A stretch of 64,000 bases of DNA from Pseudomonas sp. DY-1 (lineage in GTDB: Bacteria > Pseudomonadota > Gammaproteobacteria > Pseudomonadales > Pseudomonadaceae), in assembly GCF_003626975.1 (NCBI RefSeq), contig NZ_CP032616.1:4254001-4318000 (forward strand), given 5' to 3'. Below are positions 8,738 to 50,055 of this stretch, piece after piece. The translations under genes and the position numbers were made by a program. The notes under the pieces were generated by a model that worked only from the letters and a program-made list of their open reading frames with translations, was not told the DNA's origin and did not search any database. Every line of letters starts with the position of its first letter. The first letter of the stretch is position 1.

Positions 8738-10201
8738 TCAGGTGGTCAATGTACGCAGCAGATTCTTGTAATCCTCGCGGATATCCGCGTCGGATTCCCT
8801 TAATTGCGCAATCTTACGACAGGCATGAAGCACCGTGGTGTGGTCTCTTCCGCCGAATGCGTCGCCGATTTCCGGTAGGCTGTGATTAGTCAATTCCTTG
8901 GACAGTGCCATGGCAACCTGACGCGGCCGAGCCACCGAGCGCGAACGGCGCTTGGAGAGCATGTCGGACATCTTGATCTTGTAGTACTCGACTACGGTGC
9001 GCTGGATGTTGTCGATGCTGACCAGCTTGTCCTGAAGGGCCAGCAGGTCCTTGAGCGACTCGCGGATCAGTTCGATGGTGATGTCACGCCCCATGAAGTG
9101 GGCATGCGCGATCACACGCTTCAACGCACCCTCCAGCTCACGCACATTGGAACGGATGCGCTGTGCGATGAAGAATGCGGCGTCATGCGGCAGATCGACC
9201 TTGGCCTGCTCGGCCTTCTTCATCAGGATCGCCACCCGCGTTTCCAGCTCTGGCGGCTCGACGGCGACAGTCAATCCCCAACCAAAGCGCGACTTGAGAC
9301 GCTCTTCCAGCCCCTCGATTTCCTTGGGATATCGATCGCTGGTGAGAATCACCTGTTGTCCGCCCTCCAGCAATGCGTTGAAGGTGTGGAAAAACTCCTC
9401 CTGCGAACGCTCTTTGCGGGCAAAGAACTGGATGTCGTCGATCAGTAGCGCGTCCACCGAACGGTAGAAGCGTTTGAATTCGTTGATCGCATTCAGCTGC
9501 AGCGCCTTCACCATATCCGCCACGAAGCGCTCGGAATGCAGGTAAACCACCTTGGCATTCGGATTCTTCTTCAGCAGGTGGTTACCCACAGCGTGCATCA
9601 AGTGCGTCTTACCGAGGCCGACACCGCCATAGAGGAACAGGGGGTTGTAGCCGTGCTTCGGGTTGTCCGCGACCTGCCAGGCAGCGGCACGAGCCAACTG
9701 GTTCGACTTACCCTCGACGAAGTTTTCGAAGGTGAAGGTACGGTTCAGGTAGCTGGTGTGCTTGAGCGCACCTTCAACCTGTACGGAACGTTCGGTGCGA
9801 ATCGCTGGCGCGGGCACAACCGAAGCCAACGGATCGAGATTGTCGCGGGATTCTTCCACAGTCTCGATACGCATCTGCGGTGGCGCCACAGGAGCGGGGG
9901 GCGGCGGAGCCATGACCGGCGGCGGAGGCGGAGGGGCCTTCCGGGGAGCCGGGCTGCGTTTGCTGCCTATTAATAAGGAAAGGGCAGGCGCCAGACCGTT
10001 GCCTCGTTCGCCGAGCAACTCGAGAAGCCGGCCCATGTACTTTTCATTGACCCAATCGAGCACGAACCGGTTCGGCGCGTAGACGCGCAGTTCGTCTCCA
10101 TCGGCTTCAACCTGTAACGGGCGGATCCAGGTGTTGAATTGCTGGGCAGGCAGCTCATCGCGCAGGAGTTCCACGCACTGCTGCCAAAGTTCCACTGACA
10201 C
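8738..10201 (-). CDS. dnaA: Chromosomal replication initiator protein DnaA
   Basis: A 487-residue AAA+ initiator that binds DnaA boxes and opens the origin. Domain I is [20 protein letters not shown]. Domain II is a proline-rich linker (about residues 85-130), shorter than the one I recall from P. aeruginosa. Domain III carries Walker [10 protein letters not shown] and Walker [10 protein letters not shown]. Domain IV ends with the DNA-binding signature [15 protein letters not shown]. It is the first gene of the leftward operon and faces away from oriC. The number of DnaA boxes elsewhere in the window makes DnaA titration a theme here. Confidence 0.98.
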
Positions 10202-35649: not shown

Positions 35650-35659
35650 GTGCGAAGCC

Positions 35660-36007
35660 CTATTCCCACTTTCCCTGGCTCTGGGTTTCGCAGAAAGGCT
35701 TCAGGTAGCGCGCATCGCTGGCGACGCCGTAGTAGTGGATGTCCTGGCGGTACAGCTGGTTGCTGACCTTGGCATTGCGACAGACGCCAAAAGCGCCGGT
35801 GGGGCAGTTATCCACAAAGCTCACCTCCACTTTCTGCCCTTTCATTTCCGGCTTGCAGAAGCCGTCACGAAAGAGTTGCGGCGGGATGCTACGGTTCTCC
35901 TGACAGAGCTTCACGTCCAGTCCATCGCCCTGGCTGTGGACAACACAGGCTTCGGCATGGGCTTCGACTGAGAGCAACAGCAGCAAAGGCAGCAAACAGG
36001 CGCGCAT
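35660..36007 (-). CDS. Secreted cysteine-rich small protein of unknown function
   Basis: A 115-residue protein with a clear signal peptide (MRACLLPLLLLLSVEAHA, cleavage after about residue 18). The mature part has six cysteines (21, 35, 51, 68, 76, 106), enough for three disulfides in the periplasm. I do not recognise a family. The ATG at 36007 is chosen because the signal peptide starts there; a longer frame to 36139 overlaps the divergent gene. It is convergent with the DUF1826 gene. A perfect DnaA box lies at 35808-35816 inside the gene. Confidence 0.7.
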   Translation of the reverse strand: MRACLLPLLLLLSVEAHAEACVVHSQGDGLDVKLCQENRSIPPQLFRDGFCKPEMKGQKVEVSFVDNCPTGAFGVCRNAKVSNQLYRQDIHYYGVASDARYLKPFCETQSQGKWE

Positions 36008-36086
36008 CGGAGGTCTTCCAGAACATGAAGGCAGCGACTCTAGCACGGCGCTTTCTAAGCGGGTTGTGAGCAAGCACCATATCCCA

Positions 36087-37052
36087 ATGCTTACCCACAT
36101 CCCTACCCATCTCATCGCCGGGCCCTTGGGCGCCGGCAAGACCAGCCTGATCCGTCAGTTGCTGGCACAACGGCCTGCCCACGAACGCTGGGCGGTCTTG
36201 ATCAACGAATTCGGCCAGATCGGCCTGGACGCGGCACTGCTGGCCAGCAGCGACGACGGCATCGCCATGGCCGAAGTAGCAGGCGGCTGTGTCTGCTGTG
36301 TCAACGGCGCGCCCTTCCAGGTTGGGCTGGGCCGGCTACTGCGCAAGGCACGGCCGGACCGGCTGCTGATCGAACCCTCCGGACTCGGACACCCTGTCGA
36401 GCTACTGCGACAGCTACGCGAACCGCCGTGGGAGGGCGTTTTGGCGCTACAGCCGAGCGTCATGGTGCTGGACGCGGCGGCGCTGGCTACGGGCCAGCTA
36501 CTGCCAGACAGCCAGCGGGAGGCGCTTCTGGATGCTGGCTTAGTGCTACTAAACAAGGCCGAAGGCCTGGATTCGGCTACCTGTGAACAACTTGCCGCAA
36601 CATTGCCAAGTGTTCCCCGGCTGTGGACGACGCACGGCATGCTAGATATACAGCAGCTTCCAGGAATCCATGCACAATCTGGAAAAACTGTTGGTATCAA
36701 CGACTTACCAACAGGTGTGGATAAACAACCGATTCTGTGGAGAAATTCTGCCGAACCGGTCTGCCAGATACAGGCCGGTGATGACGGTTGGAGCATCGGT
36801 TGGCGTTGGCATCCGAGCCAGCGATTCGATCCGATCCGCCTGCAGACTTGGCTGGCCAGCCTGCCCTGGCGCCGCGCCAAGCTGGTGGTGCAGACCAGCG
36901 CTGGCTGGCTGTCCGGCAACTTCCTGGGAGGCGCACCGATCCATTGGCAGGCCAGCGAATGGCGCAAGGATTCGCGATTGGAACTGATATTCGCCGGTCC
37001 CCAGGACGAGGCGGCGTTGAAGGCTGGAATGGCGGCTTGCCGCCTGGGCTGA
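36087..37052 (+). CDS. CobW/COG0523-family GTPase, second copy
   Basis: A 321-residue metal-trafficking GTPase. Walker A GAGKTS is near residue 16 and the CxCC motif CVCC at 68-71 (AGGCVCCVNGAPF). NKAE and a short CobW_C domain (about 225-320) follow. It is clearly distinct from ZigA in its short C-terminal domain and YjiA/CobW-type core. ATG 36087 (MLTHIPTHLIAG) is preferred; a GTG at 36066 is in frame. A second COG0523 gene in this locus supports a metal-homeostasis role. It contains a perfect DnaA box at 36716. Confidence 0.83.
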   Translation: MLTHIPTHLIAGPLGAGKTSLIRQLLAQRPAHERWAVLINEFGQIGLDAALLASSDDGIAMAEVAGGCVCCVNGAPFQVGLGRLLRKARPDRLLIEPSGLGHPVELLRQLREPPWEGVLALQPSVMVLDAAALATGQLLPDSQREALLDAGLVLLNKAEGLDSATCEQLAATLPSVPRLWTTHGMLDIQQLPGIHAQSGKTVGINDLPTGVDKQPILWRNSAEPVCQIQAGDDGWSIGWRWHPSQRFDPIRLQTWLASLPWRRAKLVVQTSAGWLSGNFLGGAPIHWQASEWRKDSRLELIFAGPQDEAALKAGMAACRLG

Positions 37053-37223
37053 GAGAAGGTTTGTGGATGGCCGGTGTCGATTCGCCTGCCCGGGCTCGCA
37101 GGATGAAACCGCTTGGGTAGGGGACGCTGTGTGTTCAGCCGGGGGATATAGGTGACAGGTGCCGGTCCAGGCCAAGCGAACTTCGCTGCCCCGTTCAAAG
37201 CAAAAGCGCGAACCTGCGGTTCC

Positions 37224-37250
37224 CTTGGCGATTGAAATCGCCCCTACAAG
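37224..37250 (+). repeat. Short Pseudomonas-type intergenic repeat, copy 1
   Basis: CTTGGCGATTGAAATCGCCC followed by CTACAAG, with the 7-bp hairpin GGCGATT/AATCGCC. Together with the preceding GAACCTGCGG it recurs in reverse orientation at 38847-38892, on the other side of the transporter gene. Confidence 0.65.
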
Positions 37251-37280
37251 GAACGCACCCGGATGCATTCCCCCGGAAAC

Positions 37281-37304
37281 GAAAACGGGCCCCGCAGGGC
37301 CCGT
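37281..37304 (-). terminator. Terminator of the dicarboxylate transporter gene
   Basis: ACGGGCCC/GGGCCCGT with a four-base loop. On the minus strand it is followed by TTTTC, 26 bases after the stop. Confidence 0.85.
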
Positions 37305-37329
37305 CTGATGCTGTCGATCCTATCCGGGA

Positions 37330-38634
37330 TCAGTCCATACGCGAGTGGGTGCGGGTGTCCTTCATGAAAACGTACACCAGCAGCGAGCAGGCGATGCAGG
37401 CGGTGACGTACCAGTAGAAGCCGCTCTCCATGCCGATGCTCTTGAACCACAGGGCGATGTACTCGGCGGTTCCGCCGAAGATGGACACGGTCAGCGCATA
37501 CGGGAGTCCCACGCCCAAGGCGCGGATTTCGGTGGGGAAGAGCTCGGCCTTCACCACGGCGTTGATCGAGGTGTAGCCGCTTACGATGATCAGCGCCGCC
37601 ATGATCAGGAAGAACGCACCCCACCAGGTCTCGATGGTGTGCAAGGTGCTGAGGATCGGGTAGGTGAACAGGGTGCCCATCACGCCGAAGGCGATCAGGA
37701 TCGGGCGACGGCCGATCTTGTCGGAAAGCCCGCCGACAATTGGCTGCAGCAGCATGAACAGGAACAGAGTGGCGGCCGAGATCATGGTCGAGTCGTCCTT
37801 GCTCATGCCCACGGTGTTCACCAGGTACTTCTGCATGTAGGTGGTGTAGGTGTAGAAGGCCAGGGTGCCGCCCATGGTCAGGCCGACCACGGTCAGTACT
37901 TCCTTCGGGTGGCGCAACAGGGTGCGCAGCAGGCTTTCCTTCGGCTTGTCCTTCTTCTTGGTGAAGGACTCGGTCTCTTCCATGCCGCGACGAAGGAACA
38001 TGGCCACCACCGCGCACAGGGCGCCGATGAAGAAGGGTACGCGCCAGCCCCAGCTTTCCAGCTGTTCGGTGGTCAGGGTCTGCTGGAGGATGATCAGCAC
38101 CGCCAGGGCGATGAGCTGGCCGGAAATCAGGGTCACGTACTGGAAGCTGGAGAAGAAGCCGCGTTGCTCCTTGGTTGCCATTTCCGACAGGTAGGTGGCC
38201 GAGGTGCCGTATTCACCGCCCACCGAGAGGCCCTGCAGCAGGCGCGCGACCACCAGCAGGATCGGGGCGGCGACGCCGATGGTTTCGTAGCTCGGGGTCA
38301 GGGCGATGATCAGCGAACCGAAGCACATCAGCAGCACCGAAGCCAGCAGGGCAGCCTTGCGGCCCTTGCGGTCGGCGTAGATACCCATCAGCCAGCCCCC
38401 GATGGGGCGCATCAGGAAGCCGACGGCGAAGATCGCTGCGGTGTTGAGCAATTGGGCGGTCATGTCGCCCTGGGGGAAGAAGGCTTTGGCGAAGTACAGC
38501 GAGAACGCGGCGTACACGTACCAGTCGTACCACTCGACCAGGTTGCCGACCGAGCCACTGAAAATCGATTTGATGCGTTGCGATGTCGTGCGGGGTTCTG
38601 CAGAGGCAGCCAGGGTGCTGGAGTTATCCATCAT
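37330..38634 (-). CDS. MHS-family MFS transporter, probably alpha-ketoglutarate/C5-dicarboxylate
   Basis: A 434-residue, 12-helix transporter of the metabolite:H+ symporter family (KgtP/ShiA/ProP type). The family motif GNLVEWYDWYVYAAFSLYF is at about residues 29-47, GIYADRKGRKAAL (loop 2-3) at about 84, and RLLQGLSVGGEYGTSATYLSE is diagnostic. It has a sigma-54 promoter (38705-38720) and lies beside a DctB/DctD-type two-component system. This matches my memory of the P. aeruginosa alpha-ketoglutarate transporter PA5530, which depends on RpoN and MifS/MifR. Substrate assignment is by family and context only. Confidence 0.85.
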   Translation of the reverse strand: MMDNSSTLAASAEPRTTSQRIKSIFSGSVGNLVEWYDWYVYAAFSLYFAKAFFPQGDMTAQLLNTAAIFAVGFLMRPIGGWLMGIYADRKGRKAALLASVLLMCFGSLIIALTPSYETIGVAAPILLVVARLLQGLSVGGEYGTSATYLSEMATKEQRGFFSSFQYVTLISGQLIALAVLIILQQTLTTEQLESWGWRVPFFIGALCAVVAMFLRRGMEETESFTKKKDKPKESLLRTLLRHPKEVLTVVGLTMGGTLAFYTYTTYMQKYLVNTVGMSKDDSTMISAATLFLFMLLQPIVGGLSDKIGRRPILIAFGVMGTLFTYPILSTLHTIETWWGAFFLIMAALIIVSGYTSINAVVKAELFPTEIRALGVGLPYALTVSIFGGTAEYIALWFKSIGMESGFYWYVTACIACSLLVYVFMKDTRTHSRMD

Positions 38635-38704
38635 CTTTCCTCGACGCGTAGTTGTTGTTGTGGAGGCGCTGCTCTGTGGCGGCGCGCTTGGGCACTGGGC
38701 ACTT

Positions 38705-38720
38705 AGCAGGAGCTGTGCCA
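38705..38720 (-). promoter_or_regulatory. Sigma-54 promoter of the transporter gene
   Basis: Minus-strand TGGCACAGCTCCTGCT matches TGGCACG-N4-TTGCW with correct GG/GC spacing and two differences. It is 71 bases upstream of the ATG at 38634. Confidence 0.75.
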
Positions 38721-38846
38721 GGGGAGGAAAGGCCCGGAATAGAGGGGTTTCAACGTGATACTGCGGCGCTCATGCGCGGAATCCTGCCGATGCCTGAATG
38801 GCGATGAGCAAGATTCCGCCTATCTCGAAGCTCAGGCAGGTCACTG

Positions 38847-38947
38847 TTTGTGGGGGCGATTTCAATCGCCAAGCGGGCCGCAGGTTCGCCCTTCGATCTG
38901 TCAGACGGCCGCGGTGCTGCCCTTGGCGAATGAATGCGCCCCTACAG
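38847..38947. repeat. Two further copies of the short intergenic repeat
   Basis: 38847-38873 is the reverse-oriented copy (GGGGGCGATTTCAATCGCC then AAG), continuing into GGCCGCAGGTTCGCCC. 38922-38947 is a direct copy in the form CTTGGCGAATGAATGCGCCC then CTACAG. Together with the promoter they fill the 307-bp gap between the transporter and the response regulator. Confidence 0.6.
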
Positions 38948-40282
38948 ATCCTCACCGCGGAGGAATTCACTGCGCGCCAGGCCGTGGCGGGCCATCTTTT
39001 CGTTGAGGGTGCGGCGTGGCAGCTGCAGCAGGGTCATCACGGCCTTGATGTCACCCTGGCTACGCGCCAGGGCCTGGCGCAGGCATTGTGCTTCGTAGGC
39101 TTCCATCAGCTCGGCAAGGGAAGGCTCGCCGTCCTTGCGCTCAGCCTGCCCTGTGGATAACCCCAGGACATGGCGTTCGGCGGCGTTGGACAGCTCGCGT
39201 ACGTTGCCCGGCCAGTCGTGGGCCAGCAGCTGCGCGAGCTCCGCCGGGGTCAGGATGGGTTGCGGCCGTCCCAGGCGCTCGCTGGCCTGACGGGCGAAAT
39301 GTTCAAAGAGCAGGGGAATGTCCTCGCGCCGCTCGCGTAGGGCCGGCAGCTGCAACTCAGCCACGTTGAGGCGGTACAACAGGTCCTCGCGGAAACGCCC
39401 GGCGCGAACTTCATCGCGAAGGTCTGGCTTAGTGGCGGCAACCACGCGGATATCCACAGCGATGCTCTGGTTCGAACCCAGACGCTCCAGGCGTTGCTCC
39501 TGCAGCACCCGCAATAGTTTCACCTGCTGCGCCAGGGGCATGCTCTCGATCTCGTCGAGAAACAGGGTGCCGCCATGGGCGTGTTCGATCTTGCCGACGC
39601 GCTTGCCCTGGGCGCCGGTGAACGCGCCGCTCTCGTGGCCGAACAGCTCGCTCTCGAACAGGTTCTCCGGGATGGCAGCGCAGTTCAGCGCCACGAAAGG
39701 CTTCCCGGCGCGTGGGCCGAAGTCATGCAGGCAGCGTGCGACCATTTCCTTGCCGGCACCGGTATCGCCCCGCAGCAGGATATTCACCGGGGTTGAGGCC
39801 AGATCCAGCACCTGGCGGCGCAACTGCGCCATGGCGCGGGAGACGCCGAGCAGGCGCCCGTCGAGTTCGTCCTTGAGCTCCGCCTGGACCCGCAGGCGAC
39901 GGTTCTCCTGCACCAGCCGGCGTTTTTCCAGGGCACGGCGCAGGCTGTCCAGCAGGCGCTCGGCGGTGAAGGGCTTCTCGATGAAGTCATAGGCACCCAG
40001 GCGCATTGCCTCCACGGCCTGCGGTACGTCGCCATGGCCGGTGACCATCAGGAAGGGCAACTCGCGGTCCAGCGCCTGCACGGCCTGGAGCAAGGCCATG
40101 CCACCCATGCCGGGCATGCGCAGGTCGCTGATGACCACGCCGGGGAAATCCCCGTCGAGGTGTTTGAGGCAGTCCTCGGCGCTGGACTCCACCTGCACTT
40201 CGAATCCGGAGAGCTCCAGCCACTCGCGCACGGCGTCACGGATGGCCGATTCGTCGTCGACGAAGATCACCTGGGCTGTCAT
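38942..40282 (-). CDS. mifR: Sigma-54-dependent response regulator (DctD/MifR-like)
   Basis: A 446-residue NtrC-family activator. The receiver domain has the phospho-acceptor Asp53 (VVISDLRMPG). The AAA+ domain carries Walker A GDTGAGKEM and the sigma-54-contacting ESGAFTGA loop. A C-terminal Fis-type helix-turn-helix is at about 405-435 (SQGDIKAVMTLLQLPRRTLNEKM). It overlaps the sensor gene by four bases (ATGA). Its closest sigma-54 target in sight is the transporter at 37.3 kb. The name mifR rests on context and remembered similarity; DctD is the alternative. Confidence 0.75.
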   Translation of the reverse strand: MTAQVIFVDDESAIRDAVREWLELSGFEVQVESSAEDCLKHLDGDFPGVVISDLRMPGMGGMALLQAVQALDRELPFLMVTGHGDVPQAVEAMRLGAYDFIEKPFTAERLLDSLRRALEKRRLVQENRRLRVQAELKDELDGRLLGVSRAMAQLRRQVLDLASTPVNILLRGDTGAGKEMVARCLHDFGPRAGKPFVALNCAAIPENLFESELFGHESGAFTGAQGKRVGKIEHAHGGTLFLDEIESMPLAQQVKLLRVLQEQRLERLGSNQSIAVDIRVVAATKPDLRDEVRAGRFREDLLYRLNVAELQLPALRERREDIPLLFEHFARQASERLGRPQPILTPAELAQLLAHDWPGNVRELSNAAERHVLGLSTGQAERKDGEPSLAELMEAYEAQCLRQALARSQGDIKAVMTLLQLPRRTLNEKMARHGLARSEFLRGEDL

Positions 40283-42078
40283 GGCACTTCCTCTCTGGCT
40301 TTATCCACAGGCAGGCGCAGGCTGAATAGCGCGCCCTCGGCCTGGTTGGCGGCGGTCAGCGTGCCGCCCAGTTCGTGGACGATGGCGTAGGAAACCGCCA
40401 GTCCGATGCCCAATCCGGCACCGGCCGGCTTGGTGGTGAAGAAGGGGTCGAACACCCTTGGCAGGTCTTCCTCGCGAATACCTCCACCGTTGTCGGCCAC
40501 TTCGAGCAGCCAGTGACCGTCGTCCCGCCGAAGGGTTATCCACAGTTTTGGCTCGGGCTTTCCGGCCACGGCGTCGAGGGCGTTGCGCAACAGGTTGACC
40601 AGCACCTGTTCGAGGCGGATGGCATCACCCGAAACCCAGGCCGGCACGTTCAGCTCCTGGCTGATCTGAACGCGGGCATCGCGCAGGTTGGGGGTCAGCA
40701 ATTGCAGGGACTTATCCACAACGCTACCCAGCTCGAGGCATTCGCGCAGGCCTCCGGGCGTCTTGCGTGCATAGGTCTTGAGGTGCCCGGTCAGGGCGGC
40801 CATTCGCTGTAGCAGTTCGTCATGACGCCCCAAGGCCTTGCGCGCTTGCTCCAGTTGGCCGTTATCGAGCATGAGACGCAGGCTCGCCAGGTGCATTTGC
40901 AGGGCGGTGAGCGGCTGGTTGATCTCGTGGGCAAGGGCTGTGGACATCTGTCCCAGGGCGGCGAGCTTGGCCGCCTGGATCAGCCCGTCCTGGGCCGTGC
41001 GCAGGGCCGCGGTGCGTTGTTCCACCAACTGCTCCAGCTCCTCCCGGCTGCGCTGGCGGATACGAGCCAGGCGCCAGCGCTGGTGCAGGAACAGGGCCAG
41101 GAAGAATACCGCCAGCCAGGCTCCACCGGCAGCAAGGCTGGCGGCGCGCGCACTGCTGGCGGCTTCCTGCGGAATGCGCAGCAAATGCAGGGTCCAGCCT
41201 TCGCTGGCCAGCGGCAGGCTTTCCCAGAGGTAGTCAGCGGGGCCGTTAGGCCCCTCGACCCGGGCCAGCCGGCTACCTTCGCCGAAATCGACCCGAGTGT
41301 TGTGGATAAGTGGCGCAAGGGGCTGCTTGTCGTACTGGCGGGTGGCGGTCATTTCAGCGCGGCCCTCGGCGGAGATGGGCTGCAGCTCGCGGTAGCGCCA
41401 TCCGGCCTGATTGGCGATGAACACCACGCCACGGGCGTCGCTGACCAGGATGATGTCCGAGCGTTGGCCCCATTCCTGCTCCAGTTCGGGAAACTCCAGC
41501 TTCACCACGATGGCGCCGATGAAGGCCTCCTCGATACCGCGCACGGCGCTGGCCAGGAAGTAGCCGGGAATCCCGCTGGTCACCCCTACTGCGTAGAAGC
41601 GGCCGCTGCCAAGACGCCGGGCTTCGGCGAAGTAGGGGCGGAAGCCGTAGTTGTGGCCGACAAAGCTGGTGGGCAGACGCCAGTTGCTGGCGGCCACGGC
41701 CAGGCCGTTGCGATCCAGCAGTTCAAGGGTCGTGGAACCGGCGGCGCGGTTCATCTGTTCCAGCTTGATGTTGAGGCTGTGCTGGGCATCTTTATCCACA
41801 GGTCCGGCCAGTGTCGCGCGTAGCTCCGGGTCCAGCGCCAGCACGGCAGGCAGGGCGCGGAAGCGGTCGATCAGCGTACGCAGGCTGCCGGCGTAGAGCG
41901 TCAACTGCTCGCGGGCCTGCTCGCCTTCATCGCGCAAGGCCTGGCGTTCGGCCTGACGGCCGGCCAGATGCATCGCCAGGAACAGACCGGCGAGTAGCAG
42001 CAGGATCAGCAGGGCGATGCGCAGTTGGCGGGAGATCAAGGCGTGGTGTCCCCAGGGCAGAGGCGGCGACGATAGCAC
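40279..42078 (-). CDS. mifS: Membrane sensor histidine kinase (DctB/MifS-like)
   Basis: A 599-residue sensor. Helix 1 is at about residues 18-40, then a periplasmic double-Cache region (about 45-310) containing [20 protein letters not shown], helix 2 near 318-336, and a coiled coil. The HisKA region reads [20 protein letters not shown] with the phospho-histidine in AHEINQPL. The HATPase region reads [18 protein letters not shown] and [12 protein letters not shown]. The N-terminal start is uncertain by about 14 residues. Four perfect DnaA boxes (40536, 40712, 41301, 41792) lie within the gene and another (40301) overlaps its last codons. Confidence 0.78.
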
Positions 42079-42151
42079 GGCAGGCCCTGACTACTGCTCC
42101 TGGCGGGAGTCTGCGGATACACTTCGCGCAGACAACTTCAAGGCACGTTCG

Positions 42152-43030
42152 ATGCAATTGCTCCCCTGGTCCCACTCCACTTCCGCCGGATTCACCCTGC
42201 GCGGCTGGCACACTCCGGCTTCCGGCAAACCGCTCCTGCACTTCCTCCACGGCAACGGTTTCTGTGGCCGCACCTACACGCCCCTGCTGCAAGCGTTGGC
42301 GGAAGATTTCGACCTCTGGCTCTGTGATATCCAGGGTCACGGTGACAGCGACCATGGCGGCCGATTCGTGGGCTGGAACCGCAACGCCGAGCTGGCGGTG
42401 GAGGCTTTCGAGGCTGGACGCCGGGAGTACGGCGATGTGACGCGGGTGGCGGTCGGGCACAGCTTCGGCGGAGTGCTGAGCAGCCTGATCCTGGCTCGTC
42501 ACCCGGAACTGTTCAGCCGCGCAGTCCTGCTCGATCCGGTGATCTTCACGCCGGCGATGATCGGGGTGATGGCGTTCTCCGAAGTGCTCGGCCTGCACCG
42601 CCGCACCACCATGGCCAGCCGTGCCCGGGCGCGGCGCAATCACTGGGCCGATCACCAGGCCGCGTGGCACGGCCTGCATGGGCGGGGGATCTTCAAGGGC
42701 TGGACCGAAGAGGCACTGAACGGCTATGTGGATCACGCTATCAAGGTTGTGGATAACGGCGTCGAGTTGAAGTGCCGCCCGAGTCGCGAGGCGGAAATCT
42801 TCAGCTCCTTCCCCAAGCGCCTGTGGCCGTCGCTGGGACGTATCGTCACGCCGACCCTGATTCTCCACGGCCAGCACAGTTACCCCTTCGTGGCCAAGTC
42901 GGTGGCGCGCCTGACCGCCCTCAATGGCCACGTTAGTGCACAGGTGGTGGAGGGTGGCCACTGCTTCATGCAGGAATTTCCCCAGGCCAGCGCCGAGCGC
43001 ACGGCCGAGTTTCTGTTTCGCATGTCATGA
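42152..43030 (+). CDS. Alpha/beta hydrolase
   Basis: A 292-residue alpha/beta-hydrolase fold enzyme. HGNGFCGRTY (residues 33-42) forms the oxyanion region. The nucleophile is Ser104 in GHSFGG, and the catalytic histidine is in GGHCFMQEFP near the C-terminus. The acid is probably in the segment around TPTLILHGQ. No signal peptide is present. The start at 42152 (MQLLPWSHST) is preferred over an upstream start inside the divergent kinase region. The substrate is unknown. The stop overlaps the next gene by four bases. Confidence 0.8.
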   Translation: MQLLPWSHSTSAGFTLRGWHTPASGKPLLHFLHGNGFCGRTYTPLLQALAEDFDLWLCDIQGHGDSDHGGRFVGWNRNAELAVEAFEAGRREYGDVTRVAVGHSFGGVLSSLILARHPELFSRAVLLDPVIFTPAMIGVMAFSEVLGLHRRTTMASRARARRNHWADHQAAWHGLHGRGIFKGWTEEALNGYVDHAIKVVDNGVELKCRPSREAEIFSSFPKRLWPSLGRIVTPTLILHGQHSYPFVAKSVARLTALNGHVSAQVVEGGHCFMQEFPQASAERTAEFLFRMS

Positions 43031-43332
43031 GTGACCCGCGCCGGGAAGCGGTGTGGCTGGCGCTCTCCGAGCTCTGGCGCGATATCGAACTGGACGCCGC
43101 CAGCCTCGAAAACCTGGCGCGGGTATTGCGCGGCAGCGGTTATCCACAGGACGAGCTGGAGGCCATCTACCGCCTGGAAGTGGCTCCCGTGGTCTGGCTG
43201 AATACCTGGACCACTGCGGGTGTCTGGGATGGCTTTGATCCCGCATGGCTGTTCGAAGGTTGTCGGCGCAACCAGAGATTGAGGACGTCGCGCCGACATC
43301 GGTGGCGCTGCCGCCTTCTGCGACGGCCATGA
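43027..43332 (+). CDS. DUF7079-type small protein
   Basis: A 101-residue cytoplasmic protein coupled to the hydrolase (ATGA overlap). The sequence VWLALSELWRDIELDAASL, GYPQDELEAIYRLEVAPVVW and WDGFDPAWLFE matches a family I remember as DUF7079, of unknown function. The last 20 residues are unusually arginine-rich (RRHRWRCRLLRRP). A perfect DnaA box encodes its GYPQ segment (43140-43148). Confidence 0.65.
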   Translation: MSDPRREAVWLALSELWRDIELDAASLENLARVLRGSGYPQDELEAIYRLEVAPVVWLNTWTTAGVWDGFDPAWLFEGCRRNQRLRTSRRHRWRCRLLRRP

Positions 43333-43402
43333 CGTACGCCGGCGAACACCAATGGCAGGAGCTTATCCATAGAATGCTCCGTGTGATTTCGGGCCGCCCA
43401 TG

Positions 43403-43427
43403 AAAAACGGGCCCGAGGGCCCGTTTT
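43403..43427. terminator. Bidirectional terminator
   Basis: AAAACGGGCCC/GGGCCCGTTTT around GA, between the convergent DUF7079 and DUF3301 genes. Confidence 0.88.
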
Positions 43428-43445
43428 CAGATTAATCACTGGCGG

Positions 43446-43856
43446 TCAGTCCACCCGGCGTTTTTCATCCGGCTTGGGATGATTGCGTCGCCATTCGTTC
43501 ATGTGGATAACCTTGTCGTCCCGCTCGATCTCGAGGTCTGAGCGGAAAGGATGGGCCTCGACATCGATACGGCCCAGGTGATTGCCGAACATCTGGATGC
43601 TGCCGGTCAGACGTTGTTCACCGGTGACGGTGAATTCGAAGTCGTAGATGCGGGCCAGACGGCGGTTGCCCTTGCCATCGCGCACCATTGCCAGGCGGCG
43701 GAAGGCAACGTTGCCATCCAGCAGCTCCAGATCGAGGCGCGCGCAATGCTGCTTGGCGAGCGCCAGCGCACGTTCGCGCACACCATGACCGCGCCACAGC
43801 CAGGCCGCGCTGGCGGCGAACAACATCAGCAGGAATACGTCAGCCAGGCTCAGCAT
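43446..43856 (-). CDS. DUF3301 family membrane-anchored protein
   Basis: A 136-residue protein with one N-terminal membrane helix (SLADVFLLMLFAASAAWLW). After it come ALALAKQHCARLDLELLDGNV, GNRRLARIYDFEFTVTG and QMFGNHLGRIDVEAHPF, which I recognise as DUF3301. It is probably anchored in the inner membrane; the function is not known. It contains a perfect DnaA box at 43502. The 257 bp between its start and the next gene (44114) show nothing I can name. Confidence 0.8.
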   Translation of the reverse strand: MLSLADVFLLMLFAASAAWLWRGHGVRERALALAKQHCARLDLELLDGNVAFRRLAMVRDGKGNRRLARIYDFEFTVTGEQRLTGSIQMFGNHLGRIDVEAHPFRSDLEIERDDKVIHMNEWRRNHPKPDEKRRVD

Positions 43857-44113
43857 GTTGGCTCCAGAAACATAGACCCAAGCTTAAACCATCCTCGGTG
43901 GTTTCAGAGGGCCACCTCGATACGGATTCTTCCCTGTTGCTTGCCGCGGGAGAGCGTCGCATCGGTGCCGCCAGAGTCAGCTCTACTGCTGCCGAACGGT
44001 GTGAATTCCGGAACATCCGGCCTGCGGCCATCTGTCCCAGCGACTAGGCTTCATCCCGAGCAGGCGCTTGGCTAGCATATGCGCCCCCCGTTCGACCGGC
44101 ATGGAACCTACCT

Positions 44114-44497
44114 GTGACCCACGGCAGAGCACGACATCGCGGCGCCTGGCTTGGCCTTCTGGCCATGCTGCTGGTGCTCGTCGGTCCGCTGGTGTCCCAG
44201 GCGCGGGACATGGGGCAGGGTGGGGTACCGGCGTGGATGGATGAGTTGGCTTGTGCCACCGACCACGGCGCTCCCGGTCATGAACCGTCCATGCCCAGCC
44301 ACGAGATGTCCTGGGCCAAGTGCGGTTATTGCACCCTGCTGTTAAATTCTCCCGCCCTGACGCAGGCCGGCCTGCACGGCCTGGACCTTGCCGGGCTCGC
44401 CAACCCGCAGCCGGCGCTGGCCACCTTGAGCGGCCACGGCGGCAGGGCGATCTTCCCTGGCGCACTGACTCGCGCTCCCCCCGTCGCGCTTTCCTGA
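44114..44497 (+). CDS. DUF2946 family protein
   Basis: A 127-residue protein with an N-terminal hydrophobic segment (LGLLAMLLVLVGPLVSQA) and the CGYCTLL motif typical of DUF2946 proteins, which often sit beside copper or haem uptake genes. A His/Met-rich stretch (HGAPGHEPSMPSHEMSW) could bind metal. The start is GTG at 44114. It heads a likely operon with the PepSY protein and the PCuAC chaperone. Confidence 0.75.
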   Translation: MTHGRARHRGAWLGLLAMLLVLVGPLVSQARDMGQGGVPAWMDELACATDHGAPGHEPSMPSHEMSWAKCGYCTLLLNSPALTQAGLHGLDLAGLANPQPALATLSGHGGRAIFPGALTRAPPVALS

Positions 44498-44587
44498 CCC
44501 ACGCAAACCTTACCTTCTGCAGTGCATGGCCCGGCCCATACCGGCACCTGTGCGCGCAGGCTACTGGTTCATCAGGGAAGCACGACA

Positions 44588-45961
44588 ATGTCGAAAAACG
44601 CTGTCTCCTTTTACAACCTGGCGTGGCGCTGGCATTTCTATGCCGGGCTGTTCGTCATCCCCTTCATGATCATGCTGGCGGTCACCGGCAGCATCTACCT
44701 GTTCAAACCGCAGCTGGACAACCTGCTCTACAGCGACCTGATGCAGGTTCGTCCCGCCGGCCCGGCGTTGACCGCCGACCAGCAGCTGGACAAGGTGCGG
44801 CAGGCTTATCCACAAGCCGCCGTCAGCCAGTACCTGCCGCCGCTGGATGCCGAGCACAGTGCGCAGTTCGTGGTCAGCCTCGACGGGCGCAAGACCAACC
44901 TCTTCCTCGACCCCTACAGCGGCCAGGTGCTGGGCACCCAAGACGCGCAGAACAACCTCCAGGCCATTGCCCGCTCACTACACGGCACCCTGCTGGTCGG
45001 CACAGTCGGTGATCGGTTGATCGAGCTGGCCGCTGGATGGGCGATCGTACTGGTGGTTTCCGGCCTCTACCTCTGGTGGCCGCGAGGGCAAGGCATGCGC
45101 GGCGTGTTCTGGCCAAGGCTGGCCATTCGCGGGCGACTTTTCTGGCGTGACCTGCATGCGGTGACCGGTTTCTGGGGATCGCTGCTGCTGCTGTTCATGC
45201 TGCTCACCGGAATGACCTGGACGGGCTTCTGGGGTGAGAAGTTCGCCGACGTCTGGAACACCTTCCCGGCGGCCATGTGGAACGAGGTGCCCAAATCCGA
45301 CCAGCAGGCTCGTAGCCTGAACACCGCCGAAGACCAGACCGTGGCCTGGGCGGTGGAGAACACGCCGCTGCCGGCCTCCGATCCGCACGCCGCGCACAAG
45401 GGGCATGACATGGCGGCGATGACCATTGGTGCCGGCCAGGTGAGCTTGCAGCAGGTGGTCGACACCGCTAGCGACCGTGGCGTGGTACCGGGCTACAGCA
45501 TCACCCTGCCGGCTGACGCCACTGGCGTTTTCAGCATCGCCGTGTTCGCCGATGACCCGCGCAACGACGCCACCCTGCACCTGGATCAGTACAGCGGCAA
45601 GGTGCTCGCCGATATCCGCTGGCAGGACTACGGCGTTGTCGCCAAGAGTGTCGAGATGGGCGTGGTGCTGCATGAAGGCAAGTTCTTCGGTCTCGCCAAC
45701 CAACTGCTGATGTTCGGCGTCTGCTTGTTGATCCTGCTGAGCGCCGTGAGTGGTCTGGTGATGTGGTGGAAGCGCCGCCCGCAAGGTTCGCTTGGCGTAC
45801 CGCCGCTGCGCCATGACCTGCCATTGTGGAAAACCGCGGTGGTGATCATGATCGGCCTCGGTATCGCGTTCCCGCTTGTGGGCCTGTCCCTCCTGGCGAT
45901 CTGGGGGCTGGACTGGCTGGTGCTGTCGCGCATCGGCGGCAGCAAGGTGGTGGCCGGTTAG
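44588..45961 (+). CDS. PepSY-associated transmembrane protein (possible ferric reductase)
   Basis: A 457-residue inner-membrane protein. Four long hydrophobic segments frame periplasmic PepSY domains: WHFYAGLFVIPFMIMLAVTG, AAGWAIVLVVSGLYLWWP, WGSLLLLFMLLTGMTWTGFW, and AVVIMIGLGIAFPLVGLSLL near the end. LQAIARSLHGTLLVG and LYLWWP are typical of the family. A His/Met-rich loop (DPHAAHKGHDMAAM) may bind copper. Family members have been linked to iron or copper reduction. ATG 44588 is preferred over 44522. It contains a DnaA box at 44806. Confidence 0.8.
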   Translation: MSKNAVSFYNLAWRWHFYAGLFVIPFMIMLAVTGSIYLFKPQLDNLLYSDLMQVRPAGPALTADQQLDKVRQAYPQAAVSQYLPPLDAEHSAQFVVSLDGRKTNLFLDPYSGQVLGTQDAQNNLQAIARSLHGTLLVGTVGDRLIELAAGWAIVLVVSGLYLWWPRGQGMRGVFWPRLAIRGRLFWRDLHAVTGFWGSLLLLFMLLTGMTWTGFWGEKFADVWNTFPAAMWNEVPKSDQQARSLNTAEDQTVAWAVENTPLPASDPHAAHKGHDMAAMTIGAGQVSLQQVVDTASDRGVVPGYSITLPADATGVFSIAVFADDPRNDATLHLDQYSGKVLADIRWQDYGVVAKSVEMGVVLHEGKFFGLANQLLMFGVCLLILLSAVSGLVMWWKRRPQGSLGVPPLRHDLPLWKTAVVIMIGLGIAFPLVGLSLLAIWGLDWLVLSRIGGSKVVAG

Positions 45962-46061
45962 TCCGGCCAGCAGGCGCGGTGTTGTTGCCGCGTCCGCAAT
46001 GGAGAGCAATCGGCGCCCGCCGGAGGTGGGCGCCAGTCAATCGAATGAACGGAGTTTCAAC

Positions 46062-46532
46062 ATGCGCAAGACCTTGCTGGCCCTGGGGGCCCTGCTGAGT
46101 TTCTCTGGCTCCCTGGCCGCCCATGAGTACAACCTTGGCTCGCTGCATATCGAACATCCATGGGCTCTGGCCGTGCCCGCGGTATCACCCAATGGCGCCG
46201 CCTACCTGGTTATCCACAACAAGGGCTCGGAGGCCGACAAGCTGCTCGGCGCCGATACCGCCCGTGCCGGCAAGACAGAGATTCACGAGCACCTGCACAA
46301 GGACGGCCTGATGAAGATGCAGCAGGTGCCGGACGGTCTCGATATCCCTGGCGGTGGCGAAGCGCGTCTCGAACAGGGCGGCTACCACTTGATGATGTTT
46401 GGCCTGAAGCAACCGCTGAATGATGGCGACAAGTTCCCCATGACCCTGCACTTCCAGAAGGCGGGCGACCTGGAAGTGGAAATCCACGTACAGAAGGAAG
46501 CACCGGCCGGTAACGCCGAGCACCAGCACTGA
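46062..46532 (+). CDS. Periplasmic copper chaperone PCu(A)C
   Basis: A 156-residue secreted protein (signal peptide MRKTLLALGALLSFSGSLAA). The copper-binding pattern is visible: His75, Met86, His109, Met111, that is H-X10-M-X22-H-X-M, close to the family's H-X10-M-X21-H-X-M. It ends in a His-rich tail (NAEHQH). Such proteins deliver Cu(I) to the CuA site of cytochrome oxidase. It lies 100 bases after the PepSY gene and is followed by a hairpin terminator. Confidence 0.88.
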   Translation: MRKTLLALGALLSFSGSLAAHEYNLGSLHIEHPWALAVPAVSPNGAAYLVIHNKGSEADKLLGADTARAGKTEIHEHLHKDGLMKMQQVPDGLDIPGGGEARLEQGGYHLMMFGLKQPLNDGDKFPMTLHFQKAGDLEVEIHVQKEAPAGNAEHQH

Positions 46533-46541
46533 TGCCTGCCC

Positions 46542-46570
46542 GCGGGGCCGTTCGGCCCCGCAACCTTTCC
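46542..46570 (+). terminator. Terminator after the copper chaperone gene
   Basis: GCGGGGCC/GGCCCCGC around GTTC, then CAACCTTTCC; a perfect DnaA box (46578-46586) follows. The remaining gap to 46817 (about 230 bp) shows no gene. Confidence 0.7.
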
Positions 46571-46817
46571 TGCCGGGTTATCCACAGATGCCGTTCGGCA
46601 CCGTGGTTTGCCGGGCTGTGGTCACTCTTCTAGCCTGATTCCATCGCAAGGAGCACCCGCCGGCAGGACGCCAGCCCCCGCGCAAAGCGCGGCCTCGCAT
46701 CAATCATCTGCCCTCCGCTGTTTCTTGGCGATGCACTGCATCGGGCCTGAGGCGCCGCGCATTTCGCCGCGCCTGGCTGGCCCGTGCCCTGATGAGCTGA
46801 ACAAAAGGAGATGGATG

Positions 46818-48218
46818 ATGAACACAGCAAGGACATTCCGTGTTGCCTGGTTGCTTTCGCTGGCGTTGCTCTGCGCAGGCCCGTTGCTGGTCGCCGGTTC
46901 GGCGCAGGCGGCGAGTCCCGCCTGCAGCGCCAGCCAGGACTGGATCACCAACCCTGCCCCACCCAGCGAGATACCTGAAGGCAGCAACGCAGATTTCTGC
47001 GACTTCTATCAGTTCGCCTGGCAATGGTTCTTCCAACTGGTGAGCCCGTCACAGAGCGATCCGAGCCTGCGCAACTTCCAGATCAACGCCAATTACCCGA
47101 TCCTCCAGGCGACCGGCACCAATTCCTGTGATCCGGCCAATCAGTCCGAAGTGATGTTCGTGCGCCGCGACAAGCCCATCGCTGCCGGCACACCCTTCCA
47201 GATTCCGGAGCGCACCGGCCAGGCGGGTGGCGGCGACACCATCTTCGACCAGAACGGCAATGTGGTCTTCTACGAGATCCGCTTCAGCCAGAGCCTCTGC
47301 AACGTGGCGCAGATTCAGAGCGCGCCGAACTACCCAGCCGGTACCACCGAGATGAAAAGTGCCTGGCGGATCATCACCGATGCCGACAAACCGAATTACT
47401 TCTGGATAGAGGCAAACGTGGATGGGGTGCCCGGCAACGAGTTGCTGGGGCTGGTGGGGTTCCACATGGCGATCGCCACCGCGCTGCACCCGGAATTCAT
47501 CTGGGCCACTTTCGAGCACCGCAGCAACGTGCCCGAATGCAGCAATCCGGGGACCGCTCCAGCGGAAGGATGGTCTTTCACCAGCCCGACCTGCGCTGTG
47601 GATAACCCTCCGTCTACCTGCAACATGAACCTGGCCGCGCCCAGCACCAGCCTTACCGGGACGCCCTCGGAAATCTGCCGGGTCTACCATGACGGGACCA
47701 ACACCGCCGACCATGAAGCAGACACCAACATCGCCGATATCGACAGCCTGAACACGCAGATCCAGGGCTTCCTCTCGGCATTGGGCAGCGACAATCCCAT
47801 GAGCGTCTGGCAGAACTACATGAATGTTGGTGCCCTCTGGGAAAACGACGTTACCCAGCCATCCTCCACGTTCTCCAACCAGCGCGGGTCCATGCGCCTG
47901 GCCAATTCTGTGATGGAAACAACCTTCCAGAACGTCGACCCGACGCAGCCCTTCATTTCCAACTGCTTCGGTTGCCACAACTTCAATGGCAGCGGAAACA
48001 GCAACACCATTCCCTGGGCCAGCTTGAGCCACATTTTCGACGACGTGATGCAGGGCCAATGTGCCACCCCGCAGGACGTGCAAGCCGGGCCCATCTGGAA
48101 CAACAGCCAGGCCGCACAGACTTGCCCCAAGGTGTGCAACAGCAAGGGTGGCTGGAACGGCAATTGGAAGACAACCGAACCCGGCAACATGTCGGTCTGC
48201 GGCTGCTGCGGGGGATAA
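46818..48218 (+). CDS. Secreted haem-binding (CxxCH) protein with a mannan-binding-lectin-like C-terminus
   Basis: A 466-residue secreted protein (signal peptide to about residue 31, SAQAA). It has 14 cysteines after the signal. A single c-type haem motif, CFGCH, is at 383-387. The core carries GFHMAIATALHPEFIWATFEH (about 214-234), a block I associate with a family of cytochrome-like proteins. The last 44 residues (423-466), AGPIWNNSQAAQTCPK then WNGNWKTTEPGNMSV, resemble the MVL mannan-binding lectin repeat (A-G-P-x-W-x-N...W-x-G-x-W). The stop lies 60 bp before the DnaA-box array. The start may be ATG 46815 or 46818. Confidence 0.7.
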   Translation: MNTARTFRVAWLLSLALLCAGPLLVAGSAQAASPACSASQDWITNPAPPSEIPEGSNADFCDFYQFAWQWFFQLVSPSQSDPSLRNFQINANYPILQATGTNSCDPANQSEVMFVRRDKPIAAGTPFQIPERTGQAGGGDTIFDQNGNVVFYEIRFSQSLCNVAQIQSAPNYPAGTTEMKSAWRIITDADKPNYFWIEANVDGVPGNELLGLVGFHMAIATALHPEFIWATFEHRSNVPECSNPGTAPAEGWSFTSPTCAVDNPPSTCNMNLAAPSTSLTGTPSEICRVYHDGTNTADHEADTNIADIDSLNTQIQGFLSALGSDNPMSVWQNYMNVGALWENDVTQPSSTFSNQRGSMRLANSVMETTFQNVDPTQPFISNCFGCHNFNGSGNSNTIPWASLSHIFDDVMQGQCATPQDVQAGPIWNNSQAAQTCPKVCNSKGGWNGNWKTTEPGNMSVCGCCGG

Positions 48219-48278
48219 GTCCGCACCGGGGCGCGTGATCATTTACTGATCAGTTTCGTGCGAACCGCGTCAATCGTG

Positions 48279-48470
48279 GGATACAGCGGTGCCCGCACAG
48301 CTTATCCACAGACGGCTGCACAGATATTGTGTGTAGTCGTCTGTGTAAGTTATTGAAATTGCGCGAAAAACACTCAATCGACGGCAAGCCGCTCTGCGCC
48401 TGGGTTACGGCCATCCATGGACACCTTATGCACAGGACCATCCACGTGAATTGGGTACAAGCGTGGAAAA
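48279..48470 (+). repeat. DnaA-box repeat unit A
   Basis: Box 1 TTATCCACA at 48302; CACAGATATTGTG follows; TAAGTTATTGAAA at 48346 (offset 44; one base from the IHF consensus YAANNNNTTGATW); CGAAAAA; box 2 TTATGCACA at 48426; then CCACGTGAATTGGGTA. Confidence 0.85.
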
Positions 48471-48587
48471 CCTCTCACGGGGTTGTGGGTTACTTGGTGG
48501 CGCCATGGCGCTGTCCAGCATTGGCGCTGCCATGAAGGCACAGGTGGTCATGGAATGATCAGATGGCTGGAGCGCACACCACTACTG

Positions 48588-48779
48588 GCCTGCAGCGATG
48601 CCTGTACAGCTTATACACAGATGCCTGCACAGATATTGTGCGCAATGCCAAGCACAAGTAATTGAAATAGAACGAAAAATGTACAGAGATGGGAAAGCCG
48701 CGGTGCACCGGCTTCCTGGAAGTCGAACTACAGTTTATCCACAGATGAGTCCACGGGTTTTGGGTAAAAGCGCTGGCTC
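48588..48779 (+). repeat. DnaA-box repeat unit B
   Basis: Box 1 TTATACACA at 48611; CACAGATATTGTGCGCAATG; CAAGTAATTGAAA at 48655 (offset 44); CGAAAAATG; box 2 TTATCCACA at 48735; then GTCCACGGGTTTTGGGTAAA. Confidence 0.85.
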
Positions 48780-48969
48780 CCTGTGAACAGATCTCCGGCC
48801 CTCGCCACTTTCATGAAAGTTTGCCCGTCAGCCAAGGTCTCTTGGCGTGGTTTCGCGAATGAATTGGCTCCTGCAGGAGAGGTGATGCAATGCTTTATGC
48901 ACAGAGGAGTCTTTACGGCTGCAGGTTGAACATAAAGTGATCATGTTGATGGAGGCCGCGTTGGCCGTG

Positions 48970-49161
48970 CCCTGCAGCATTGTCCGCACAAGCTATCCAC
49001 AGATGGCTACACAGATATTGTGCGCAATGGTCGAGTTATCCCTATGAATTTGCTCGAAAAATGCCCAGGAAGTGGGAAGCTGCGTCAGTCTTGGGCTTCG
49101 TGCATCCATTGACATCTTATCCACAGAAGCGTCCACCGGATTTGGGGGAAAAAGGCTCTGC
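48970..49161 (+). repeat. DnaA-box repeat unit C
   Basis: Box 1 CTATCCACA at 48993; CACAGATATTGTGCGCAATG; the IHF-like element is degenerate here but in register; CGAAAAATG; box 2 TTATCCACA at 49117; then GTCCACCGGATTTGGGGGAA. Confidence 0.85.
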
Positions 49162-49267
49162 AATGGGCATCTCCGCAAAAGGGAGAAGGCGTACGCAGGG
49201 TGTTTTTCCGCGGGGCGCTGAACCTGGTCGGAAACTGGTCAATCCCCGGAAGTGCCCGGTTAGCGTG

Positions 49268-49459
49268 GGGTAGCAAAGTGTCCGAACAGCTTATCCACAG
49301 TCTGTTGCACAGTATCTGTGTGCAATGCACAGAGCAAGCGATTGAAAATGCTCAGAAAATAGCCTGATCGCGGTGAGGCGCGCGTGGTGTGGGGCCTGGA
49401 GGTTGGTCTACACCTTATCCACAGGCCCTTCCACTGATTTTGGGGAACAGAAGGAAAGG
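49268..49459 (+). repeat. DnaA-box repeat unit D
   Basis: Box 1 TTATCCACA at 49291; CACAGTATCTGTGTGCAATG; CAAGCGATTGAAA at 49335 (offset 44); AGAAAATAG; box 2 TTATCCACA at 49415; then TTCCACTGATTTTGGGGAA. Its end nearly touches the thioesterase stop codon. Confidence 0.85.
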
Positions 49460-49466
49460 CGCGGCT

Positions 49467-49949
49467 TCAGATGCCTTCGCGCATTTCCCGGTAGCGCGCT
49501 TCGAGTTCCTGGCGAATCTGGCGGCGCTGCCTGGCCTGGGCGAAGCGGCGCTTCTCATCGGTGGTTTCCGGTTGCAGGGGGGGTACCTGCGCGGGACGTC
49601 GTTCGTCGTCCAGGGCCACCATGGTGAAGAAGCAGCTGTTTGTGTGGCGTACCGAGCGCTCGCGGATGTTCTCGGTGACCACCTTGATGCCTACTTCCAT
49701 CGAGGTGTTGCCGGTGAAGTTCACCGAGGCGAGGAACGTGACCAGTTCGCCCACGTGGATAGGTTCGCGGAAGATCACCTGGTCCACCGAGAGGGTCACC
49801 ACGTAACGACCGGCATAACGGCTGGCGCAGGCGTAGGCGACTTCATCGAGGTACTTGAGCAGGGTGCCGCCGTGGACGTTACCGGAGAAGTTGGCCATAT
49901 CCGGGGTCATGAGGACGGTCATCGACAGTTGTGCGGTTCCGGGTTCCAT
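49467..49949 (-). CDS. Acyl-CoA thioesterase (hotdog fold, YciA/BACH type)
   Basis: A 160-residue single-hotdog thioesterase. MTPDMANFSGNVHGGTLLKYLDEVAY carries the catalytic region (N-x-HGG-x-L-x-x-x-D). The segments SVDQVIFREPIHVGELVTF and SCFFTMVALDDERRP follow. The C-terminal tail is charged and helical (ARQRRQIRQELEARYREMRE). ATG 49949 is chosen because it gives the normal family length; an upstream start at 50051 adds unrelated sequence. A perfect DnaA box (50039) lies 90 bases upstream. The substrate range is not visible. Confidence 0.88.
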   Translation of the reverse strand: MEPGTAQLSMTVLMTPDMANFSGNVHGGTLLKYLDEVAYACASRYAGRYVVTLSVDQVIFREPIHVGELVTFLASVNFTGNTSMEVGIKVVTENIRERSVRHTNSCFFTMVALDDERRPAQVPPLQPETTDEKRRFAQARQRRQIRQELEARYREMREGI

Positions 49950-50055
49950 GCTGGCCTCGTCAGTTTGGGGGCTGTCAGGGATAGACGCAGGCTGGCGCCG
50001 GGGCGCTACAGTCGGCGTCACGCATTTCCATGGACGCTTGTGGATAACCATCGAC

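Follow-up and report, generated by a model that had tools for sequence, protein, structure and literature searches.

In this study, we analysed a window of 64,000 nucleotides from Pseudomonas sp. DY-1 (the window always means this whole stretch of DNA) and observed an array of four units, each with two DnaA boxes on the same strand whose starts lie exactly 124 bp apart. Each of the eight boxes opens a triplet that consists of a box, 3 bp, a second box, 5 bp and an inverted box. In E. coli, the loci DARS1 and DARS2 reload DnaA with ATP. On balance, the sequence is best read as two-headed DARS-like elements repeated in tandem, which would probably reactivate DnaA by turning ADP-DnaA back into ATP-DnaA. 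Such an array would extend the DARS timing mechanism to pseudomonads in a new, repeated form. An earlier note on this DNA had proposed a DnaA-titrating or DnaA-modulating locus about 38 kb from oriC. A DnaA-modulating locus at this place is well supported, whereas passive titration is not the best reading, since each box opens a triplet of DARS geometry.

Organization of the array and its surroundings

The array lies about 38 kb from dnaA and occupies a 1.25-kb gap between the ends of two convergent genes. The gap had been described as gene-free, and no open reading frame of at least 100 amino acids was found wholly inside 48219-49466. oriC presumably lies just beyond the start of dnaA, with boxes at 10271 and 10356. 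On rescanning, the four units, the exact 124-bp pairing and all eight box starts given in the earlier note proved right (48302/48426 in unit A, 48611/48735 in unit B, 48993/49117 in unit C and 49291/49415 in unit D). The features are listed below with their positions in the window and the basis of each assignment.

8738..10201, minus strand: dnaA (Pfam, box scan)
46608..48218, plus strand: left flanking gene with a C-terminal MVL mannan-binding domain, pointing into the array (open reading frame, Pfam)
48284..48465, plus strand: unit A, two triplets and an IHF-like site (profile match, alignment)
48302..48336, plus strand: unit A triplet 1, TTATCCACA, 3 bp, GGCTGCACA, 5 bp, inverted CTACACACA (geometry scan)
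48346..48358, plus strand: unit A predicted IHF-like site TAAGTTATTGAAA, 1 mismatch (motif)
48426..48460, plus strand: unit A triplet 2, TTATGCACA, 3 bp, CCATCCACG, 5 bp, inverted TTGTACCCA (geometry scan)
48593..48774, plus strand: unit B (profile match, alignment)
48611..48645, plus strand: unit B triplet 1 (geometry scan)
48655..48667, plus strand: unit B predicted IHF-like site CAAGTAATTGAAA, 1 mismatch (motif)
48735..48769, plus strand: unit B triplet 2 (geometry scan)
48975..49156, plus strand: unit C (profile match, alignment)
48993..49027, plus strand: unit C triplet 1 (geometry scan)
49037..49049, plus strand: unit C position of the IHF-like site, poor match with 3 mismatches (motif)
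49117..49151, plus strand: unit C triplet 2 (geometry scan)
49273..49454, plus strand: unit D (profile match, alignment)
49291..49325, plus strand: unit D triplet 1 (geometry scan)
49335..49347, plus strand: unit D predicted IHF-like site CAAGCGATTGAAA, 1 mismatch (motif)
49415..49449, plus strand: unit D triplet 2 (geometry scan)
49467..50051, minus strand: right flanking gene, a 4HBT thioesterase, pointing into the array (open reading frame, Pfam)

Seven of the eight array boxes fit TTATNCACA, and the remaining one (48993, unit C) is CTATCCACA. CACAGATATTGTG is exact in units A to C, and unit D has CACAGTATCTGTG. The IHF-like motif that had been noted at offset 44 in units A, B and D was recovered there with one mismatch each, and unit C matches it poorly. 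Between units B and C there is an extra box, TTATGCACA, at 48895-48903, without a partner at 124 bp. The same interval harbors a short repeat (48842-48886) that matches many sites in this and related genomes and is possibly a REP-like element. A mobile repeat was rejected as an explanation of the unit, because the dispersed matches trace to this separate short repeat and not to the unit. A few kb from dnaA, a CrcZ-family sRNA (RF01675, 197 bits) was detected at 2465-2843 on the minus strand.

Triplet geometry and its conservation

Within the window, the triplet is carried by all eight array boxes and by none of the 57 other DnaA-like boxes, when the second box must reach 4 of 8 and the third 5 of 8, cut-offs that were chosen after the array was seen. 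The second and third boxes score on average 4.75 and 5.75 of 8 in the array, compared with 2.07 and 1.60 for the other window boxes. An alignment of 61 units has conserved columns at three places after each first box; these units were picked by box match and a spacing of 123-125 bp, so the spacing is not independent evidence there. In a geometry scan of the 58 units in the standard register (three units of a shifted type were left out), the top DnaA-box-like places after the first box were +12 on the same strand and +26 on the opposite strand in both arms, out of 102 options of offset and strand in arm 1 and 46 in arm 2. The first box of the array triplets matches 7-8 of 8 informative positions and the middle box 4-6 of 8, and of 16 additional units examined in this genome, three have a perfect middle box. 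Allowing one mismatch, an IHF-like motif is present in 33 of the 61 units, 31 times at offset 44 (letter shuffles average 1.6, with a maximum of 6), and an A-rich run follows it. The other 28 units have no such motif at this threshold.

The earlier note had proposed an alignment in related genomes, with the 124-bp spacing and the boxes kept and the remainder changing. This is what BLAST revealed in 13 of the 17 same-genus relatives (G003, G004, G006 to G016), and the array was not found by BLAST in the other four (G001, G002, G005 and G017). The query (window 48230-49480) was run against 38 genomes, this one and 37 relatives, and matched in 19 of them, in some through the short dispersed repeat alone. 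Among the matches listed, the arrays comprise between three and five units each. Neighbouring units lie at variable distances, and the spacing within units stays at 124 bp, apart from a few units spaced 123 or 125. The IHF-like site between the triplets recurs, and the rest of the sequence diverges. In 14 array loci, including the one described here, 50 of 160 same-strand box pairs (up to one mismatch per box, distances of 10-290 bp) are spaced exactly 124 bp, and the next most frequent distances are 98 and 222 with 14 pairs each. An exact pattern of the first triplet and its flank gave nine matching stretches in the species-genome collection, all from Pseudomonas.

Further units are present in the same genome. 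Five same-strand pairs of TTATNCACA with 105-135 bp between them were detected (reversed-pattern control: 0), and four of these are exactly 124 bp apart from start to start, namely three array units and one new unit. Unit C escapes this search because its first box is CTATCCACA. The pattern search gave the following further pair:

G000:C2:3801326-3801458, minus strand: further 124-bp pair, about 460 kb on the other side of dnaA (pattern search)

A second cluster of units was observed at G000:C2:3801297-3808924 (L031:8297-15952), likewise at a distance of about 460 kb from dnaA, on the side opposite to the array. Its profile matches are all on one strand and have counterparts in several relatives. 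One of its unit types has its inner elements displaced by about 11 bp with respect to the first box, with the boxes still 123 bp apart. Weaker matches at 5689142, 5670166, 3329555, 5006441, 4997059, 4843729 and 4574595 sit 0.3 to 1.4 Mb from dnaA, and there are still weaker ones. Sixteen of the 20 matches beyond the window, all but the four that were weakest or partial, have triplet scores of 17-21 of 24, compared with at most 15 in 3000 random 160-bp stretches of the window; the scores of matches picked by the profile are descriptive and not independent, since the profile itself contains the triplet.

The profile uses sequence only and was built from 61 pseudomonad units. At E <= 0.01 it matches 146 of 148 Pseudomonadaceae genomes and all 19 genera, some of them marginally. 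Eighteen of these genomes belong to the same genus, which is the source of most profile units (four units come from three other genera), and outside it 128 of 130 family genomes are matched. The two misses and the two weakest matches all fall in one genus (g25), and the model gives rough E-values. Across the class, a match at E <= 1e-4 was obtained in 34 of 274 genomes, this one and one of the same family included, and several distant matches have near-perfect triplets. In distant Gammaproteobacteria, triplet-like sites also precede nrdA-like and priA-like genes (L095:1501-1615 in G216 and L100:1501-1609 in G297); these are possibly DnaA operators. Since some class-wide matches lie upstream of such genes, a triplet-like site need not be a DARS.

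The spacing of perfect boxes was also counted, by eye, without a model, for convergent pairs with 0-24 bp between them. In the family set, 48 of 198 genomes have such a site, and 64 of 66 sites have a gap of 5 bp (one has 17 and one 9). In the class set, 120 of 274 genomes have a site, and 71 of 75 among the sites listed have 5 bp (the others are gaps of 17 bp twice, 22 bp once and 24 bp once). Because related genomes probably share orthologous sites, these counts are not independent. A gap of 17 bp corresponds to the outer pair of the triplet and accounts for three of the six listed sites that do not have 5 bp. With the pattern reversed as a control, one site was obtained in the family set and two were obtained in the class set. 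The divergent arrangement is found at 23 sites in 21 of the same 274 genomes, scattered, with no spacing used more than four times. No convergent perfect pair 0-24 bp apart was found in the genome of this strain or in its 17 same-genus relatives. Thus, the geometry of the array rests on weaker second and third boxes.

Proposed mechanism and alternative explanations

In the proposed mechanism, DnaA would occupy all three sites of each triplet. DnaA molecules on boxes I and II, which face each other across the 5-bp gap, would interact head to head and release ADP, as is proposed for E. coli DARS in excerpts of PMC5742627. IHF would bend the middle of the unit, so that the two triplets could meet in one larger ADP-DnaA complex, and the freed DnaA would take up ATP. 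For DARS2, excerpts of the E. coli literature name IHF and correct spacing as requirements. Having several units in tandem would multiply what the locus can do, and the more distant units on both arms, up to about 1.4 Mb away, would contribute further. The DnaA encoded in the window is 69% identical to E. coli DnaA over 467 residues and keeps Asp269, Arg285 and Leu290 (E. coli numbering), of which Asp269 and Leu290 are named for DARS action in excerpts of PMC5742627. A search of the genome for SeqA gave no match, and the E. coli control was detected. The genome also has Hda, which in E. coli has an established role in the formation of ADP-DnaA. Thus, with Hda present and SeqA not found, the genome likely needs a way to recharge ADP-DnaA.

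Several observations count against a reactivating function. The position near oriC is one of them, because early duplication there would favour an inactivating site. Others are the weak middle box, the datA-like layout of box, IHF site and box on one strand, the lack of a good IHF motif in unit C and in 28 of the 61 units, and the four same-genus relatives in which BLAST did not find the array. Potentially, the array might thus resemble datA and inactivate DnaA: IHF would fold the units, and ATP-DnaA oligomers on the two arms would hydrolyse ATP soon after the origin is copied. Proximity to oriC suits such inactivation after initiation. In E. coli, datA also has same-strand boxes (162 bp apart) flanking an IHF site that is described as required in excerpts of the literature, and it holds a 3-bp double box to which the profile gives 8.5 bits. 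However, datA lacks the 5-bp inverted box after its double box, its inverted pair being 3 bp apart, whereas both arms of the units conserve the 5-bp inverted box, and we regard a datA-like function as unlikely. We give even less credence to a passive DnaA sink near the origin, as the earlier note had proposed. The window is indeed rich in boxes (65 with at most one mismatch, compared with a mean of 5.8 in shuffles), holds 31 of the 145 perfect boxes of the genome in 1.1% of its length (12 perfect boxes genome-wide in the reversed control) and includes a conserved belt of single boxes. However, a sink could do without a constant 124-bp spacing, exact 3- and 5-bp gaps within triplets or an IHF site, and the other boxes of the window lack the triplet. 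A transcriptional or other regulatory role that has nothing to do with DnaA recharging, for example that of a promoter-linked DnaA operator or of a structured RNA, appears very improbable here. Distant profile matches upstream of nrdA-like and priA-like genes would fit an operator, and the E. coli nrdA promoter is bound by DnaA according to excerpts of PMC11317965. However, both flanking genes converge on the array and neither starts there, which disfavours a promoter role and led us to reject a promoter array for this locus. An RNA gene was likewise rejected, since RNAalifold predicted no common fold (0 pairs in 61 units) and no Rfam match at the gathering threshold was found within the array.

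The reservoir idea of the earlier note fits the array less well than the belt of 17 perfect DnaA boxes that lie on both strands at 35499-47597, in the 12 kb before it. The belt is a better candidate for a DnaA reservoir. Among 85 positions in five relatives (one represented by a single 20-kb stretch), 68 could be aligned and 60 of these are perfectly kept, compared with 23-33% of random 9-mers from the same region. At least three belt boxes (42748, 44806 and 47597) lie inside Pfam-supported genes. In E. coli, a dense zone of DnaA boxes near oriC is reported, in excerpts of PMC12371093, as favourable for titration.

If the array is indeed composed of reactivating DARS-like elements, it is tempting to speculate that pseudomonads use dispersed multi-array recharging, in which IHF-folded two-headed units are repeated in tandem beside a conserved titrating belt at the origin and recur along both arms. 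An origin-proximal domain that titrates and recharges might then set timing without SeqA, and DARS-type triplets might be ancient and class-wide and not a speciality of E. coli and its kin. We consider this wider model tentative and rather doubtful as a whole. The array bears on how bacteria without SeqA time replication, and, as a conserved and defined non-coding array, it is a concrete target for deletion and biochemistry in harmless pseudomonads. With its repeated two-arm units and rigid 124 bp, it is also a natural series in which to study how IHF and spacing govern DnaA-DnaA contacts. The near-exclusive 5-bp spacing of convergent perfect pairs across the class provides a simple rule for finding such sites.

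Comparison with E. coli DARS1, DARS2 and datA

Among the matches listed from a title search of open-licence PMC literature, no report of DARS or datA sites in Pseudomonas was found. Excerpts of PMC4245941 describe the DARS2 core as conserved in gamma-proteobacteria related to E. coli. We compared the array with the E. coli MG1655 loci. The DARS1 core is TAATACACA-TGG-TTATCCACA-GGAAT-inverted TTATCCACT, and the DARS2 core is TCTTACACC-ATG-TTATCCACA-GAAAG-inverted TTATCCCAG. Both have the same 9-3-9-5-9 layout and orientation as the array triplets. According to excerpts of PMC5742627, boxes I-III are spaced identically in the two DARS loci, with box I facing the other way from boxes II and III; the 5- and 3-bp spacing with an opposite box I is found at all eight array boxes. 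E. coli ChIP-seq indicates that DnaA prefers double boxes 2-3 bp apart, including those of DARS1, DARS2 and datA (excerpts of PMC11317965). These have the arrangement of the first two triplet boxes, to which the array adds the inverted third box, the paired arms and the IHF-like centre. Therefore, the first two boxes of the triplet are generic, and the inverted box at 5 bp is the mark of DARS.

The profile, applied to 16 kb of E. coli DNA, gave its best match at DARS1, in register (13.6 bits, E 5e-4), followed by the datA double box at 8.5 bits, another double box of the DARS2 region at 5.7 and the DARS2 core at no more than 3.4. DARS2 was therefore rejected as a profile counterpart, and, with datA above the DARS2 core, the profile by itself leaves the choice between DARS and datA undecided. 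E. coli DARS1 adjoins uvrB. Synteny with DARS1 was not supported, as no uvrB was found among the 30 flanking ORFs tested in this genome and at the distant loci. In the datA region, perfect or near-perfect same-strand boxes lie 162 bp apart (L068 3245 and 3407), compared with 124 bp in the array; we read these as datA boxes 2 and 3. Like datA, the array has an IHF site, here a predicted one, between two DnaA boxes of the same orientation, and both are closer to oriC than the E. coli DARS sites. However, judged by eye, the double box of datA is not followed by an inverted box at 5 bp (the boxes of the datA inverted pair, at L068 3407 and 3419, are separated by 3 bp), whereas the units keep such a box in both arms. 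datA is also known as a single locus and not as an array. According to excerpts of the literature, datA requires its boxes 2 and 3 together with the IHF site that separates them.

In summary, the array resembles DARS1 and DARS2 in the core and in its intergenic position, and resembles DARS2 also in an IHF-like site near the core, which is predicted in three of the four window units. It differs in the strength of its boxes, since the middle box II is perfect in DARS1 and DARS2, whereas in the array the first box, equivalent to box III, is the strongest and the middle box is weak. The E. coli DARS sites lie in the middle of the chromosome arms, and the array lies near oriC. Unlike DARS, the array has two direct-repeat triplets in each unit, exactly 124 bp apart, four units in tandem and many further copies.
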